IMG/VR virus record: IMGVR_UViG_3300044984_002961
Coordinates: 1-37,575 of that record
Strand: one strand, 5' to 3'
Origin: a virus
Length of the DNA: 37,575 nucleotides
A model generated the notes under the pieces. The model was given only the letters and a program-made list of their open reading frames with translations. It was not told where the DNA came from and ran no database searches. Position numbers and translations under genes: made by a program. Of the stretch, positions 2,548-37,515 are shown in pieces (position 1 is the first letter of the stretch; every line of letters starts with the position of its first letter).

Positions 2548-2578
2548 TTGAAAACGCATGGAATCGTATCGATACTAT
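2548..2578 (+). promoter_or_regulatory. Possible promoter for the GP88-like gene
   Basis: TTGAAA (2548-2553) and TACTAT (2573-2578) are separated by 19 nt, longer than ideal. The palindrome GTATCGATAC overlaps the -10 side. The position, about 50 nt before the chosen start, is suitable. Confidence 0.3.
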
Positions 2579-2632
2579 TTGTGGCGGGGGAATGTTTCCC
2601 CTGAATTAGTCAACAAAGAAGGAATCGATCTA

Positions 2633-3418
2633 ATGTCAACAGTCGCAGAAACGTACGTCCGTTTTTCATCCAATAACGGCAAAATGGCAAAACTAGCCAA
2701 GTCTCCAACCATTCATCCATATCTAACCGATGGAAAGAAAGTATATTCATTTGACCTTCTGGCAGGTCATTCATGTCCATTCGCGAAACGCTGTCTTGCC
2801 AAGGTTGAGGTGATTGATGGTAAATTCAAAGTGGTTGATGGGCCTGATCAGGAGCATCGTTGTTATGCTTCCATGCTGGAAGTCCGACCCAACGTTTATA
2901 ATCTTCACAAGGCAAATTTTGAAGCTCTTAAGAGTTGTAAGAATTCAGATGAGATGGCCGAATTAATTCTAACTGCGCTTCCAGATAATGCGGGAGTCGT
3001 ACGATTCCATACTTCTGGAGATTTTTTTAATCTTACCTATTTTATTGCTTGGTTGAAGGTTATAACACGCAGACCCAACATTCTTTTCTACGGATATACT
3101 AAGTGTTTGCCCTATTGGATAGGCAACATTGAAACGGTTAATTCCTTGACTAATCTCGTTTTAACGGCTAGTGATGGCGGAAAATTTGATAGTCTCATTC
3201 CGAAGTATAACCTACGCCAAGCCGTTGTAGCCTTTTCAGAGCTTGAAGCTCTAGAGTCTGGACTGGAATTCGATGATGACGATTCACACGCAGCCGACCC
3301 CGCAAAACGACACGAGTCGTTTCTATTGCTTCTACATGGTAGTCAGCCAAAGGGAACACCAGCGGGGGAAGCATTAAAAGCTATTAATCGTTCAAAGAAG
3401 GAACTAGTCCTAATATGA
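2633..3418 (+). CDS. GP88-like phage protein
   Basis: The product (261 aa) resembles the phage 'gene product 88' family. Supporting features are a basic N-terminal region with NNGKMAKLAKSP, a Cys-rich segment (HSCPFAKRCLAK and later EHRCYAS), and the signature VRFHTSGDFF, followed by a helix and a strand with YGYTK. The family's biochemical role is not established to my knowledge; the conserved cysteines may bind metal. The ATG at 2633 is chosen because GAAGGA lies upstream, whereas the in-frame ATG at 2558 overlaps the promoter-like sequence and lacks a ribosome-binding site. The C-terminus carries an acidic patch (EFDDDDS). It overlaps the next tiny gene by 4 nt. Confidence 0.7.
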   Translation: MSTVAETYVRFSSNNGKMAKLAKSPTIHPYLTDGKKVYSFDLLAGHSCPFAKRCLAKVEVIDGKFKVVDGPDQEHRCYASMLEVRPNVYNLHKANFEALKSCKNSDEMAELILTALPDNAGVVRFHTSGDFFNLTYFIAWLKVITRRPNILFYGYTKCLPYWIGNIETVNSLTNLVLTASDGGKFDSLIPKYNLRQAVVAFSELEALESGLEFDDDDSHAADPAKRHESFLLLLHGSQPKGTPAGEALKAINRSKKELVLI

Positions 3419-3507
3419 TACTCATAATCGCTGAAATACTGATTATCATGGCCGATCTAGTGGTTATGATCTTGATATGGTCGATTAATCAGTCAAAACA
3501 CAAATAA
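3415..3507 (+). CDS. 30-residue single-span membrane peptide
   Basis: An ATG overlaps the stop codon of the GP88-like gene (ATGA arrangement), which favours translational coupling. The product is a run of about 22 mostly hydrophobic residues rich in Ile/Leu/Met with one Glu and one Asp, ending in a polar basic tail (NQSKHK). This predicts one membrane span with the C-terminus inside. No family is recognised. It is the last reading frame before the tandem hairpin array. It could be a toxin-like or holin-accessory microprotein, but that is speculation. Confidence 0.5.
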   Translation: MILIIAEILIIMADLVVMILIWSINQSKHK

Positions 3508-3513
3508 GCTACA

Positions 3514-3789
3514 CACCAGCCGATCCGGCTGGTGCTTTACTTTCTACTGATCAGGGGCTTCACACCAGCCGATCCGGCTGGTGCTTTACTTTCTACTGAT
3601 CAGGGGCTTCACACCGGCCGATCAGGCCGGTGCTTTACTTTCTGAGCTTCAACCACTTCACACCGGCCGATCAGGCCGGTGCTTTACTTTCTGAGCTTCA
3701 ACCACTTCACACCGGCCGATCAGGCCGGTGCTTTACTTTCTGAGCTTCAACCACTTCACACCGGCCGATCAGGCCGGTGCTTTACTTGT
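3514..3789 (+). repeat. Six tandem 49-bp hairpin repeats (terminator array)
   Basis: Six hairpins start at 3514, 3563, 3612, 3661, 3710 and 3759, exactly 49 bp apart. Units 1-2 have stem CACCAGCC / GGCTGGTG with loop GATCC. Units 3-6 have stem CACCGGCC / GGCCGGTG with loop GATCA. The A:T pair of the first type is replaced by G:C in the second, a compensatory change that supports base pairing in RNA. Each hairpin is followed by CTTTACTT, which resembles a short U-rich tail. The array lies after the GP88-like operon and before the late promoter, so it most likely insulates the late genes from upstream transcription. A protein-binding or packaging site is an alternative. Confidence 0.8.
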
Positions 3790-3941
3790 TTCCAGGACGT
3801 TCCACACAATTCGGACACTTGGTTTATGTGACGTTTTTCCGCGATTTTTTCGGAGCCACCGCCCCAGGCGTGTCGGCCATGCACACACTACCAACAAATA
3901 AAAAAATAAAAAACAGAAAAAGCCTCCCCCTTGCTCCCATC
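3790..3941. other. Non-coding spacer before the late promoter
   Basis: No gene is supported. An A-rich tract with an AAATAAAAAAATAAAA-type composition lies near 3894-3920. The terminase genes that normally precede a portal gene are not here. Confidence 0.5.
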
Positions 3942-3979
3942 TTGTTATGCACACCTGCTTATGTTATGATATGAGTATG
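3942..3979 (+). promoter_or_regulatory. Late promoter with apparently leaderless portal start
   Basis: TTGTTA (3942-3947), a 17-nt spacer and TATGAT (3965-3970) form a promoter. The A seven bases past the -10 box is the first base of an in-frame ATG at 3977, and no ribosome-binding sequence precedes any of the three candidate ATGs (3947, 3971, 3977). The transcript would begin at or within a few bases of the start codon. Confidence 0.55.
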
Positions 3980-5473
3980 GGATTATATGGATCGTTCAAA
4001 TCGCTGTTTCGCGGCAAAACGCCCTACTCCGGTTGGGGTGGGATGGGTGGTGGATATCGCCCGTATAGCGTTTGGCTGCCAGGAACAACGTACGATTACA
4101 CGGAAATGCTTATCCAGGGTTTATGGAAGAACTCCACGGTAGCATCCGGTATCGACTGGCTTGCCAGAAACTGGTCCGTCCCAAATCTACAAGTGGTGCG
4201 AGTGGATGACGAAGGAATCGAAGATCCAATTCATAATCACCCTGCATTGACATTGTTACGTCGTCCCCACCCTTATGTGGGTGAAGCAGCGTTTGTCGGT
4301 GCATATGTCAGGGACGCAAGCTGTTACGGCAATGTCTGGATCGAGAAGATCAAGAATCGCCTGGGCGAGCCAGTGGAACTCAAGATCTGGAGGGCTGACA
4401 AGGTTTCGCCCCTCTTTCCAACGGACGGATCAGATTACCTTACGGCCTGGCGATACAACATCAACGGGAAAATGCTGGACGTTCCTGCGGACAGGGTGAT
4501 TCATATACGTCGGTATATCGACATGGATCAGGATCGGGTCGGCTGGAGTCCTCTGCTCGCCCATGTGCGTGAGATTGCAGTTTTGAATGAGGCATCCACC
4601 TACACGGCCTCTCTGCTTCGCAATTTTGCGGTTCCTGGGCTTATCGCTACCCCCAAGGGTGATTTCACGGTCTCCGAAGACGATGCCAAGGCGATCAAAT
4701 CTCGGCTCAAGGATGCCCTCACAGGTGACCAACGTGGAGACCCAACAGTTTTGACGGGTGCTTACGAACTGCACAAGATGGGATTCACGCCGGAAGAGAT
4801 CGGTCTGGTAGAGATTCCCAAGTCGGCACAGGCTACGGTCCTTGCTGCAATGGGGCTGAACACTTCGGTGCTGGGGCTGAACACGGACAACACAGGTGCA
4901 TACGGAACCTACGCAGATGCCATCAGGGCAGCATACGTCCACGGATTGATTCCGTTGCAGAAGGTTTTTGCGGACGAGATGACGCATCAGCTGTTGATCG
5001 ACTTTGAAGATCCTGATGACGTAAGGTCCGGTCGAATCAAGTTCACATTTGATTATTCACCTGTAGAGGAGCTTGATGACCGTGAACAGATTGCAGCCAA
5101 TCGGGCGATTCGTCTTCTCGGTGGTGGAGTTATCACTATTAATGAGTCTCGCGATATCGTTGGCTACGGCAAATCTGATTCACCAGATGCTGACTCGCTT
5201 GGTATCGCTAGGGATGAAATTCGCAACGAGATCTTGCCCCAGGCTGATCCAGCTCAAACAACGGTTTCTGAAGGCGATAACATTGGGTCGGTAAAGGTTC
5301 CTGCCAGCACAGGTGAACGGTCCAAGATCGAGGGCGAACGCAATAGCGATTCCCTGTCTCCCAGTCGGTCAGGGGTGAACAAGGCTTTGGTCCAGTCTTA
5401 TGTGAGCCTGCTGGCAGAACTGGAAGAATACGAATCACGCGAGGGTTGGACAGACATCGAGGAGGTCTCCTAA
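3977..5473 (+). CDS. Portal protein, HK97 family
   Basis: The portal forms the dodecameric DNA channel at the capsid vertex. The product (498 aa from this start) follows the HK97-type phage portal pattern: an N-terminal GIDWLARNWS segment, ALTLLRRPHPY, a central AYVRDASCYGNVWIEKI strand pair, DRVIHIRR, the region LLRNFAVPGLIATP, the channel-proximal PKSAQATVLAAMGL, and a C-terminal helical part with a charged disordered tail. Starts at 3947 and 3971 are also in frame. I prefer 3977 because the promoter -10 box ends at 3970. It opens the late operon, yet no terminase gene stands upstream, which is unusual for this gene. The next gene starts 2 nt after the stop. Confidence 0.9.
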   Translation: MGLYGSFKSLFRGKTPYSGWGGMGGGYRPYSVWLPGTTYDYTEMLIQGLWKNSTVASGIDWLARNWSVPNLQVVRVDDEGIEDPIHNHPALTLLRRPHPYVGEAAFVGAYVRDASCYGNVWIEKIKNRLGEPVELKIWRADKVSPLFPTDGSDYLTAWRYNINGKMLDVPADRVIHIRRYIDMDQDRVGWSPLLAHVREIAVLNEASTYTASLLRNFAVPGLIATPKGDFTVSEDDAKAIKSRLKDALTGDQRGDPTVLTGAYELHKMGFTPEEIGLVEIPKSAQATVLAAMGLNTSVLGLNTDNTGAYGTYADAIRAAYVHGLIPLQKVFADEMTHQLLIDFEDPDDVRSGRIKFTFDYSPVEELDDREQIAANRAIRLLGGGVITINESRDIVGYGKSDSPDADSLGIARDEIRNEILPQADPAQTTVSEGDNIGSVKVPASTGERSKIEGERNSDSLSPSRSGVNKALVQSYVSLLAELEEYESREGWTDIEEVS

Positions 5474-30514: not shown

Positions 30515-32998
30515 TTACTCTTGCGATCCAGCCTGGTTCGACCTGTACTTTTGAATCGCTTCTGCTGCCTGTCCAAACTGCAATCCTCGAGCCTTTTCAG
30601 GTTTCATCCCCAGTGAAATGAGGTAGTTCAACTGTTTAATCGAACACAGCCCTGAGTTTCGTCTGTCAATGATCTGGCCGATCAACTGAGAAGCCTGACG
30701 CTTGGTCATGTTGTTGACATCTGCCATTCCAGACTTATTTAGAAAATCCTTCTGCGCGGGAGTCGCAAGCTCTCCGAATCGATTGGCGTTGGTCAGCATG
30801 GCTCGGGACACACCCAATGAAGCCGCAAGCTCAAATGGATTGATCTCGACCCGCCGATAACTCATGTCCAGCCTGGCAACCGGAACCTTGATCTCCTGTC
30901 GTTGTTTACGTTCCGTCTTGGCTCGCTCCACAGCTTGCCACAGATCAACACCCTCCTCGACCAACTCCTCAGCACGCTTGGAATCAACCTCCTCACAATC
31001 TGTCAACGAGCTTGGCCCAATTAGGTCCATGTCTGTCGTGTGTGAGAAATCCAGAATCAAGCAGTCCGACTTCCCTTTGCAAAGCCTTGTCCCTCGACCC
31101 ACCATCTGGGCATAAGCGATCCGGCTTCGAGTCGGCTTTAGAACAACACAGTCTGTAGGCTTGTCATCAAACCCCTCGGTAAGGATCTGGCAGTTGACAA
31201 GGATCTTTGTGAGACCGTTTTTGTAACGCATTATCGTGTTGTCACGGTCAGGCTTATCGCCGGAAACCCAGTCCGCAGCATGTCCAAGTTGCTTTAAGGC
31301 ATCAGCCATCGCGATAGACGAGCCAACATCAGGCATGAAAACAATGATCTTCTTTCGGTCCTCAATCTCTTTGCTGATCGCGTTCGCTAATAGCTCGATG
31401 GCTGGCTGGATCTTACGACCAAGATCTCCCTGAGCAAAATCGCCATTCTTACCCGTTGTTTTGCATCCCCTCAGGTCAACCCCCAGAGAACACCGGACAA
31501 ACTTGACAGGTGATAGAAATGGGCCAGCAGGATCATGGATCGCGTCATAAAGCGAGTAGCTGTAGACAACTTCTTCGAAACGCTTCAGACTCTGTCCATC
31601 AGGTCGATCAATCGTTGCCGTCACTCCAACAAGTTTTGCATCAGGGAAGTGGTCGTAAACGGATGAATAAGTCTTATTAGACTCTCCCGCATGATGGCAG
31701 TTGTGTACTAATACGCCGTTGGCAAAGTAGTTATTGTTTCCTTCAACTTCAAGGTTATAAGTAACACCTCCTTCGCACAGTCCTCCGAATGTTCCATCAC
31801 CTGTTTGTTCGTGAAACGCAACACTTTCCACCCTTGCGAATTCAGACAAGCCTCCTTTCGCCGATCCTGCTCTCTTCTTGGTATCGAGTTGTGCGATTGA
31901 CCATCGACCTCGACTGCTAACCGGATATCCCTGCAACCCAAATCTATTTTGTAATGATTCGGAGTCTTGAAGAGTCGCCGCGATTCCTGCGTTGTTAAGA
32001 CCGTGATAGGAGTCAGGCCAGTCAGATCCGACAGAGTCTTTTCGGCAACCGACATACCCCTCCCGTTCCCCCCTTGCACTGGGGGCTTCCAGCCGATCTC
32101 CTTTAGCTTGGCTTTCTGCTTCTCGCGAACCTCCTCCCTCTTCATTGGATTGTTGGACTTCATGCGACCAGACGCATACTTCCGGTTTGTTGCTGCCATT
32201 CTTAGAGAAGAATCGATCCCGCGACACTCTCTCGAGCATGTTACTCGGTAACGCCCGTGTCGAATTTGTGTCTGATTCCCGCATACCTTGCATTTGCCAT
32301 CCATAAACCATGTCTCCTGGAGAAAGATCGCAAGCCTTAACCCATTCCCGATCTCTGGAAAACACTGGGTGATTCGGCGTGACAGTCATTGCTGAACCGT
32401 TTGAGAAACGTACAGTCATTAATTCCGATGGAATTGAAACCAGTTTCTTCTTAACCGACTTCATTTCAATTTCGCGGCTTGACTCGTTGAACGTAGCGAC
32501 CAGGTCGCCATTGCAAATTCTTTCAATAGGAATCCCATCCACAAGCGTCCCAGCGGGAAAACATTCGTCCGTGATGATCAGCTGGAAGTCGTTTGGCTGA
32601 TACCTTTTGCATCGCTTAGTCATTGACTGAACTGTTGTGCAAACCACATGTGGATCGCCCAGGGCAAACCCGTGATGGGAACCCTGTTCACGACCCACCA
32701 TCAGTCCGCACAGTTCAAACGTATCAATCGCCTGTTTAACGAGTTCTGTCCGGTGGACTGCAAACAAGGCTCGAGAGATTAACCCTTCCTCAATCAACTG
32801 GCGAATCAGAATACCTACGGTTACGGTCTTTCCCGTTCCGGTCGCCATCTGGAGAATTCCAGCTTTATGATCATCCTCGTAGACCCATGACCTAATCTTA
32901 TCAATCGCCTCATCCTGGTACGGATAAGTTGAAAACTCGCAATCCATTAACGCAGAATAGGTTAGCTCACGCATAATACCCATGTCCCCCGCATCCAT
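30515..32998 (-). CDS. SF2 DNA helicase with in-frame intein, 827 codons
   Basis: After removal of the intein (residues 146-433) the helicase has 539 residues. Superfamily 2 motifs are in order: Q-like YPYQDEAI (26-33), Walker A MATGTGKT (51-58), Ia FAVHRTELVK, Walker B LIITDE joined to CHHAG across the intein, III GVTATIDRPDG (458-468), IV KIIVFMPDVGSS, V ILTEGFDDKP and VI QMVGRGTRL. The C-terminal ~110 residues repeat a short helical unit (TPAQKDFLNKSG and SIKQLNYLISLG), as in other phage helicases. It unwinds DNA in the replication operon. The N-terminus is uncertain: ATGs at codons 6 and 9 fit the GGGGGA sequence better than the first. Confidence 0.85.
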   Translation of the reverse strand: MDAGDMGIMRELTYSALMDCEFSTYPYQDEAIDKIRSWVYEDDHKAGILQMATGTGKTVTVGILIRQLIEEGLISRALFAVHRTELVKQAIDTFELCGLMVGREQGSHHGFALGDPHVVCTTVQSMTKRCKRYQPNDFQLIITDECFPAGTLVDGIPIERICNGDLVATFNESSREIEMKSVKKKLVSIPSELMTVRFSNGSAMTVTPNHPVFSRDREWVKACDLSPGDMVYGWQMQGMRESDTNSTRALPSNMLERVSRDRFFSKNGSNKPEVCVWSHEVQQSNEEGGGSREAESQAKGDRLEAPSARGEREGYVGCRKDSVGSDWPDSYHGLNNAGIAATLQDSESLQNRFGLQGYPVSSRGRWSIAQLDTKKRAGSAKGGLSEFARVESVAFHEQTGDGTFGGLCEGGVTYNLEVEGNNNYFANGVLVHNCHHAGESNKTYSSVYDHFPDAKLVGVTATIDRPDGQSLKRFEEVVYSYSLYDAIHDPAGPFLSPVKFVRCSLGVDLRGCKTTGKNGDFAQGDLGRKIQPAIELLANAISKEIEDRKKIIVFMPDVGSSIAMADALKQLGHAADWVSGDKPDRDNTIMRYKNGLTKILVNCQILTEGFDDKPTDCVVLKPTRSRIAYAQMVGRGTRLCKGKSDCLILDFSHTTDMDLIGPSSLTDCEEVDSKRAEELVEEGVDLWQAVERAKTERKQRQEIKVPVARLDMSYRRVEINPFELAASLGVSRAMLTNANRFGELATPAQKDFLNKSGMADVNNMTKRQASQLIGQIIDRRNSGLCSIKQLNYLISLGMKPEKARGLQFGQAAEAIQKYRSNQAGSQE
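31700..32563 (-). other. Intein (288 aa) in the helicase Walker B motif
   Basis: The splice blocks are complete. Block A is CFPAGTLVDG (C1 = helicase residue 146), block B has TVTPNH (T207, H210), followed by SPGDMV. Blocks F and G are TYNLEVEG and NYFANGVLVHN (H432, N433), and the first downstream residue is Cys434. The two halves restore the helicase sequence ITDE-CHHAG. Residues ~237-388 form a linker that resembles no intein endonuclease in this frame; it is rich in Ser, Gly, Glu and Arg. The same DNA carries a nuclease gene in another frame. All residues needed for class 1 protein splicing are present. Confidence 0.88.
31708..32304 (-). CDS. Nested EDxHD/Vsr-like homing endonuclease, 198 aa, overprinted on the intein
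   Basis: This frame lies on the same strand as the helicase, shifted by +1, wholly inside the intein. Residues 5-27 form a CxxC...CxxxC zinc finger (C5, C8, C23, C27). Residues ~48-68 (SNNPMKREEVREKQ) look like the DNA-binding segment found in many homing nucleases. Residues ~85-185 are a Vsr/DUF559-type nuclease: E88, KIDLG (D121), VEVDGQSH (H138), EQDRRK (D147) and GWKVLRF. AGGAGA ends 8 nt before the ATG. The stop lies just before the intein's final VHN codons. In a normal intein the nuclease is fused in frame; here it is encoded separately on the same DNA. Confidence 0.85.
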   Translation of the reverse strand: MDGKCKVCGNQTQIRHGRYRVTCSRECRGIDSSLRMAATNRKYASGRMKSNNPMKREEVREKQKAKLKEIGWKPPVQGGNGRGMSVAEKTLSDLTGLTPITVLTTQESRRLFKTPNHYKIDLGCRDIRLAVEVDGQSHNSIPRREQDRRKEACLNSQGWKVLRFTNKQVMEHSEDCAKEVLLITLKLKETITTLPTAY

Positions 32999-36483: not shown

Positions 36484-37515
36484 ATGCGAGTACAAGCTAT
36501 GGAATCGCGAAATGAACCGTTCTACCGTAAATCACGTAGAGCGTGGTACTTACAAGTTGGTAAGCGGCAGATAAAGTTGGCAGAAAGCAAGGCAGAATCT
36601 TGGGCCAAATGGCACTTGATCATGGCTGGTGGGGTTCCTGAGGAATCGAACAAGCCAACGGTCAAAACCATCTGTGATGCCTTCATTGAGGAGATGAAAA
36701 CGTCTCGTTCCGAGCGAACGTGGCAGTGGTATGGTATGTATTTTGATAAGTTAGCCCAGTACGTGAAAGGAGATACGGTGGCAGAGAATGTCAGCTTGAG
36801 CCAGATTTCTCTCATGATTTCCAGCCAGCGGACATGGAAGGCCAACAGCCGTTACAACTTCGCACGGGCTATCAAAAGGCTGTTTAGCTGGGCCAAAAAG
36901 AACAGGCTGATCGAGATTGACCCAGTTGAGCATCTTGAAAAGTGTTCTCCCGAAGCCCGAGAAGATTACATAACGCCTGAGCAGTGGTCGTTTATCGAGT
37001 CCAACATCCCTGAGTCTCCGCTTAAGGATCTTATGATTCTTGCCTGGGACACAGGTATGCGACCTCAGGAACTGGTTCTGGTCGAGGCTCGGCACTTCCG
37101 TAAGGATGAGCGAGTGATCGTGTTCCCTGCGGCAGAGGCCAAGGGCAAGAAGTACGCCAGAACGGTCTACATCGCATCGGATCGGGCTATGGATATTCTG
37201 TCGGATTACGCCAAGGGACGCTCTGAGGGGCCAATTATGGTCAACACACAGGGCAATCCATGGAATAAGACATCCGTAAAGGATGCGATGATTCGTCTTC
37301 GCAATAAGTTTGGAGTCAAAATTCACCTTGGAGCATTCCGTAAAGGATACTGCACACAGGCTTTGCAAAACGGAGTTGATCCTGTGACATTGGCAAAGCT
37401 GATGGGCCACAGGGACGTAACGATGATCATGAAGGTCTACTCACAGGTCCACCAGGACAAGGAGTACATGGCTGAGTCGGCGATGAAAGCGAAGGGGCTG
37501 GTTAAGCCAGCTTGA
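36484..37515 (+). CDS. Tyrosine site-specific integrase, 343 aa
   Basis: This is a phage-type tyrosine recombinase. The N-terminal ~55 residues would bind arm sites; a SAM-like core-binding domain follows (CDAFIEEMKTSRSERTWQWY, RYNFARAIKRLFSWAKKNRL). The catalytic domain has R193 in DTGMRPQEL, a Lys in the beta-hairpin (AEAKGKK), box II GAFRKGYCT with R286, H309 in LMGHRD and nucleophile Y319 in MKVYSQV. In box II the usual first His is Gly and the second is Lys, variants I associate with integrases from Planctomycetota. An ATG at 36499 is an alternative start. It lies next to the att core. Confidence 0.88.
   Translation: MRVQAMESRNEPFYRKSRRAWYLQVGKRQIKLAESKAESWAKWHLIMAGGVPEESNKPTVKTICDAFIEEMKTSRSERTWQWYGMYFDKLAQYVKGDTVAENVSLSQISLMISSQRTWKANSRYNFARAIKRLFSWAKKNRLIEIDPVEHLEKCSPEAREDYITPEQWSFIESNIPESPLKDLMILAWDTGMRPQELVLVEARHFRKDERVIVFPAAEAKGKKYARTVYIASDRAMDILSDYAKGRSEGPIMVNTQGNPWNKTSVKDAMIRLRNKFGVKIHLGAFRKGYCTQALQNGVDPVTLAKLMGHRDVTMIMKVYSQVHQDKEYMAESAMKAKGLVKPA

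Follow-up and report, generated by a model that had tools for sequence, protein, structure and literature searches.

Tandem hairpins upstream of the portal gene in a group of phages: a probable stack of intrinsic terminators

Between an operon whose last long gene belongs to the GP88 family and the gene for the portal protein, a genome fragment of an uncultivated phage from IMG/VR (record IMGVR_UViG_3300044984_002961, linear, 37,575 bases; analyzed at its full length and hereafter called the window) carries six hairpins in a row. What role could so many near-identical hairpins play at a single site? A preliminary description of this DNA suggested that a row of terminators before a late promoter would act as a transcription insulator, with a packaging or replication signal as the alternative. 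We compared the locus with its counterparts in related viral contigs. The insulator emerges as the best-supported reading, given the terminator scores, the arrays at the same site in relatives and a single terminator in a distant relative: the array probably consists of unidirectional (plus strand) intrinsic terminators that would insulate the late operon for portal and head from the preceding one.

Organization of the array and its surroundings

The array (positions 3514-3779) consists of six 21-nt hairpins and 28-nt spacers, with every step exactly 49 bp. TRF run on the window reports a single array (3512-3787, period 49, 5.6 copies, 95% matches, score 390), which, together with the unit coordinates, bears out the six tandem hairpins and the exact period noted originally. 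The array starts 6 nt past the stop codon of an ORF for a 30-aa hydrophobic peptide, and the first gene downstream, about 200 bp away, encodes the portal protein (Table 1).

The units fall into two classes, CACCAGCC-GATCC-GGCTGGTG (class A, units 1-2) and CACCGGCC-GATCA-GGCCGGTG (class B, units 3-6), which are set apart by the spacer and by two changes within the hairpin, one at a stem pair, compensated, and one at a central base, uncompensated. The compensated change, A:T in two units against G:C in four, is present as first described and maps to pair 5, and the reported difference between the spacers of the two groups holds as well, the spacers being identical inside each group. Following the central change from C to A, units 3-6 cannot form the ninth pair that is available to units 1-2. 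The change at pair 5 is a single event that is matched in 158 of 500 shuffles and so is not significant alone.

Table 1 The hairpin array and neighboring features in the window
Feature	Coordinates	Strand	Remarks
GP88-family protein gene	2558..3418	+	last long gene of upstream operon; Pfam PF17338, E 1.3e-30; phrog_1392
30-aa hydrophobic peptide ORF	3415..3507	+	MILIIAEILIIMADLVVMILIWSINQSKHK; overlaps GP88 gene stop
Hairpin 1	3514..3534	+	class A, 9 bp, 3-nt loop; U-rich tail CTTTACTTTCT
Hairpin 2	3563..3583	+	class A
Hairpin 3	3612..3632	+	class B, 8 bp, 5-nt loop; spacer upstream still class A
Hairpin 4	3661..3681	+	class B
Hairpin 5	3710..3730	+	class B
Hairpin 6	3759..3779	+	class B; followed by tail CTTTACTTGTTTCCAGG, found after the last unit in most relatives
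Conserved non-coding element, array-portal gap	3813..3877	.	from alignment; kept in relatives with other array types
Candidate extended -10 of portal promoter	3962..3970	+	TGTTATGAT; ends 6 nt before start codon
Portal protein gene	3977..5473	+	Pfam PF04860, E 2.8e-40; phrog_12

The 30-aa peptide has a basic end (for example, ...IWWLNQPKRK), resembles small phage membrane peptides or type I toxins, and is conserved among relatives (L002, L009-L012, L014, L016, L018, L020 and L021) although the preceding long gene varies. The non-coding element between the array and the portal gene (TTCGCGATTTTTTC...GGCGTGTCGGC-like) is partly retained even in the group with 72% portal identity and is perhaps involved in control of the late promoter. 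In six relatives (L009, L010, L012, L013, L016 and L017), a gene of about 276 codons, homing-endonuclease-like by eye, lies between this element and the portal gene. The portal start is the first conserved ATG, a placement that rests on conservation (the mechanically delimited ORF begins at 3947), and its lack of an obvious ribosome-binding site suggests a leaderless late mRNA. An extended -10 directly before this start, conserved as TGTTATGAT or TGTTAGGAT in relatives, with the TGTTAGGAT form in the distant group, is a plausible candidate for the late promoter. An integrase gene at 36484-37515 suggests a temperate phage, for which silence of the late genes would matter.

Two further features of the window were observed outside this locus. 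Copies of GATACASTG, dispersed or in tandem (step of about 18 bp), occupy intergenic DNA to the left of the array (59-180 and 2378-2405) and have similar counterparts in L016, L018, L020 and L021; they are possibly binding sites or a replication signal. The helicase gene (30515-32998, minus strand) contains an intein-like insert, recognized by eye (CFPAGTLVDG... to ...VLVHNC), inside which a 198-aa ORF with an endonuclease-like look is found in another frame (31708-32304). In alignments with G001 and G002, window positions 31698-32563 of this gene are missing, which makes the two differ by 864 bp (288 codons) net; the G001 helicase gene has an insert at a different point.

Arrays in related phages

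Relatives were sought in viral contigs by portal protein, portal alignments and array patterns. A related portal is encoded in 23 contigs, 17 of which have a hairpin array at the same place; the remaining portal contigs are cut off at or after the array site or belong to a distant group. Complete arrays are present in 11 relatives and, with the window, in twelve phages. A comparison of unit number in relatives had been proposed in the preliminary description, and the complete arrays turn out to comprise 3-7 units at this site, with steps of 46-50 bp and differing stem sequences. These copy numbers derive from metagenome assemblies, which tend to break at repeats, and several of the contigs stop within the array. 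In 12 of 12 complete arrays, the first hairpin lies 5-7 nt past the stop codon of the small ORF, so both position and architecture are kept.

Several array types were distinguished. Arrays with the stems of the window (CACCAGCC and CACCGGCC, step 49) have 4, 5, 6 and 6 units, and those with GCCCTGTCC have 4-5 units at step 47 or 7 units at step 46. The GACCTGCTC and GACCTGCCC types are represented by 3 units at step 50 and 4 units at step 48, respectively, and the GAGCCAGACC type (step 47) by at least 3 units in contigs that end within the array. Stem types differ between phages with portal proteins that are 91-99% identical. Among the GCCCTGTCC, GACCTGCTC and GACCTGCCC types, pairs 2, 7 and 8 have changed on both sides with pairing kept. 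Hence the original argument from compensatory change to RNA structure, which was weak as given because it relied on one event, gains strength from the relatives.

Stems and spacers have been reshuffled: L009 and L021 have the same stem with different spacers, and L009 and L020 have most of the spacer in common with different stems. Most array types have the tail (C)TTACTTGTTT in common. In several phages this tail is complementary to the last bases of the small ORF (CAAGTAA, Lys-stop), and a longer hairpin that takes in the stop codon is therefore conceivable for their first unit; the whole array might derive from one terminator of this sort. In some units the central bases are flipped, AGT/ACT in L009, L010 and L013 and GATCC/GGATC in L012, as would be expected if the palindrome were copied by strand switching.

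Unit number differs between otherwise near-identical phages. The alignment of the window with L004 contains 12 mismatches and 49 gap columns in 5,957 columns, L004 having one 49-bp unit fewer, and that of L009 with L010 contains 5 mismatches and 47 gap columns in 6,048, L010 having one 47-bp unit fewer.

In the distant group, the counterpart is of another kind. L032, with a portal 72% identical, has a single 14-bp hairpin followed by TTTTTTGTTT at the array site, with a terminator score of 57; this hairpin starts 2 nt past the stop codon of a 27-aa hydrophobic ORF, upstream of the portal gene, and by its sequence reads as a textbook intrinsic terminator. This is most naturally read as a stack of weaker terminators in the near group in place of the one strong terminator of L032. 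Across the arrays, weaker units tend to come in more copies, a trend that is not significant (Spearman -0.52, p = 0.15, n = 9). Other tandem repeats occupy the corresponding gap in this group (L032, positions 354-600, ACATATGAAGATATTC-like; L033, positions 1-360, GCCACCTGGGGCC-like), which therefore seems prone to tandem duplication.

Terminator features and a proposed mechanism

The hairpins of the window have 8-9 bp, including 7 GC pairs, and folding energies of -15.5 to -16.6 kcal/mol; for single units, z is -4.1 to -4.7, and none of 200 shuffles is equally stable. All perfect inverted repeats in the window (arms of at least 8, loops of 3-6) are inside the array except for one at 1819, compared with a mean of 2.25 such matches in Markov simulations of the whole window. 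Each hairpin is followed by a tail with 7 T in 11 nt, interrupted (CTTTACTTT), and receives a positive terminator score. The units score 10.5 or 15.4 in the d'Aubenton-Carafa form (our own implementation), absolute values that are to be read loosely and that rise with optimized hairpin boundaries. The array accounts for six of the eight positive scores on the plus strand, and a scan of the minus strand of the window gave none. The asymmetry of the tails is apparent when the units are scored in the reverse direction: units 3 and 6 fall below zero, and unit 1 scores less than it does forward. The window array thus combines a stable GC-rich hairpin, a U-rich tract directly 3' of it and a position a short way past the stop codon that closes an operon, the features by which intrinsic terminators are recognized.

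Several observations count against the terminator reading. Interruption of the U-tracts keeps the scores of single units moderate. In L006 and L017 the hairpins of the array are strong but have almost no U-tract, with a score of -10, so that the U-tract feature is missing from this array type; direction makes no difference to the score of the first unit in the L009 type; and in L021, two of the seven units have a C-A mismatch, and both score negative. For the U-poor arrays and the mismatched units, hairpin clusters may be enough in the host, in line with a proposal made for bacteria (PMC8355165), or else the hairpins may do something more, such as protecting mRNA ends.

We propose that polymerase exiting the GP88/small-peptide operon would meet six successive GC-rich hairpins with interrupted U-rich tails, each of which would halt a share of the polymerases, so that little transcription would reach the portal/head operon; the latter would be driven by its own promoter just upstream of the portal start codon. 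The array would owe its growth to tandem duplication of a single unit made up of hairpin and tail, and replication slippage or recombination would alter the number of units and keep them alike. Termination, its efficiency and the promoter are what we infer from the sequence features above, as is the benefit, which could be silence of the late genes early in infection or in a lysogen. Late-gene silence, as a temperate phage needs it, is what a terminator stack that divides the genes upstream from a separate late promoter could provide.

Alternative explanations

The one-unit differences raise the possibility that the module boundary is prone to recombination and that tandem duplication there is selfish or neutral; the unit would be a terminator, but the extra copies would bring no added benefit. 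The other simple tandem repeats in the same gap of L032 and L033 would fit this scenario, as would the loss of repeated terminators by recombination in E. coli plasmids (PMC2991278). We consider it rather unlikely because multi-unit arrays persist at every complete near-group locus despite easy repeat loss, which suggests that the copies are maintained or regenerated. It is also conceivable, although unlikely in our view, that the array is a tunable insulator, in which frequent gain and loss of units by slippage would create variants with 3-7 terminators in the phage population, with graded late-gene leakage and a contingency-type setting of lysogeny tightness or late timing. Across the arrays, weaker units tend to come in more copies, a trend that is not significant (Spearman -0.52, p = 0.15, n = 9).

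A post-transcriptional role appears improbable, whether the hairpins were to cap the upstream mRNA at its 3' end and stabilize it or to be set free as a small RNA or protein-binding sponge. Strong hairpins at an mRNA 3' end, those of the U-poor arrays included, are compatible with such a role, but stem and loop sequences turn over, so that no sequence-specific partner is conserved, and no promoter-like site is reported within the array. In Rfam, no family reaches the gathering threshold; the best match below it, anti-hemB (26.9 bits against a cut-off of 49.5), could point to a small RNA, but it spans two hairpins, the 3' one corresponding to the sRNA's own terminator-like hairpin plus U-run, and so restates the terminator signal. 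We regard it as quite improbable that the palindromes are DNA operators, each bound by a dimeric phage repressor that would silence the downstream late promoter, with stem types as immunity specificities. Perfect dyads at a constant step of 46-50 bp, central flips, which would be irrelevant to a dimer, and the variation of stem types among phages with closely similar portals are all compatible with operators. Against them stand the U-rich tail, which keeps to one side of the hairpin in every type except one, the invariable location of the array 5-7 nt past a stop codon, and the single canonical terminator that takes its place in L032. Moreover, no copies of the palindromes within 3 mismatches, of the dispersed stoperator type, occur beyond the array in the window, itself a fragment, or in G001, G002, G004, L016, L018 and L021, and the palindromes are wholly absent from G003. 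A packaging (pac/cos) or replication signal, the alternative originally named, is highly improbable. The tandem repeats do adjoin the portal gene, with the conserved non-coding element next to them, but the repeat sequence is not conserved and another gene separates the array from the portal in several relatives; for a replication role, no support emerged. Furthermore, G004 has genes similar to those of the small and large terminase subunits about 10 kb upstream of its portal gene, and G001 has them at the equivalent end; with the terminase this far off in relatives and the window ending before that region, a packaging signal at the array is disfavored. Searches for the terminase found none with PF03354 and detected it with phrog_2 in G001, G003 and G004; the weak match in the window (E 0.001) is inside the helicase gene and was not counted.

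Other kinds of repeats were considered and rejected. Uniform spacers within each group, stems that change between relatives and a portal gene downstream do not fit a CRISPR array or an RNA anti-CRISPR; the same uniform spacers and variable stems, along with a downstream gene for a phage portal rather than an endoribonuclease, do not fit a type III toxin-antitoxin RNA. Steps of 46, 47, 49 and 50 bp are not multiples of three, and the only mechanically delimited ORFs in the window array are overlapping ones that start with GTG, at odds with a coding repeat.

Comparison with known systems

Genome contigs searched with the portal and the major capsid protein, in order to find the host, yielded no useful relative, and DNA and distant-DNA searches against named phages gave no match, portal identity to named phages being at most 32% among the matches listed. 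In the open-access literature searched for tandem or repeated terminators, no natural phage case like this one was found; such cases may be described elsewhere.

Type III toxin-antitoxin systems of the ToxI kind also include tandem RNA repeats near a gene, of a size similar to that of the array; here, in contrast, plain hairpins follow an operon, the portal gene is downstream and the repeat sequence is not conserved. The single terminator of L032 resembles the array in its location past a small hydrophobic ORF and before the portal gene and in combining a hairpin with a T-run, but it is one 14-bp hairpin with TTTTTT, against three to seven weaker ones. In engineered circuits, homologous repeated terminators are deleted by recombination or slippage (PMC2991278), and one-unit differences are found among these phages too; those constructs are synthetic, whereas the phage array is natural and retained.

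If the terminator reading is correct, natural stacks of up to seven units that keep their structure while their stems change would be a plain example from nature of additive termination. The arrays would supply ready-made insulators with varied stems and strengths, and the copy differences in near-identical phages would allow a direct test of whether slippage tunes late-gene read-through. Among the closest known counterparts are the hairpin clusters of bacteria, which act as intrinsic terminators, two tandem hairpins terminating better than one (PMC8355165). As in the phages, several hairpins directly follow the stop codon at the end of an operon and are thought to be additive; those clusters, however, are defined by hairpins less than 15 nt apart, not by repeated sequence, whereas the units of the phage arrays are near-identical in sequence, lie about 25-28 nt from one another and number up to seven, with a stem that changes between relatives. 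Tandem terminators being well known, the kind of element is known; what appears to be new, judging by the open-access papers searched, is an unusually long, homogenized and evolving stack of three to seven near-identical putative terminators at one site across a phage group, with the stems replaced.
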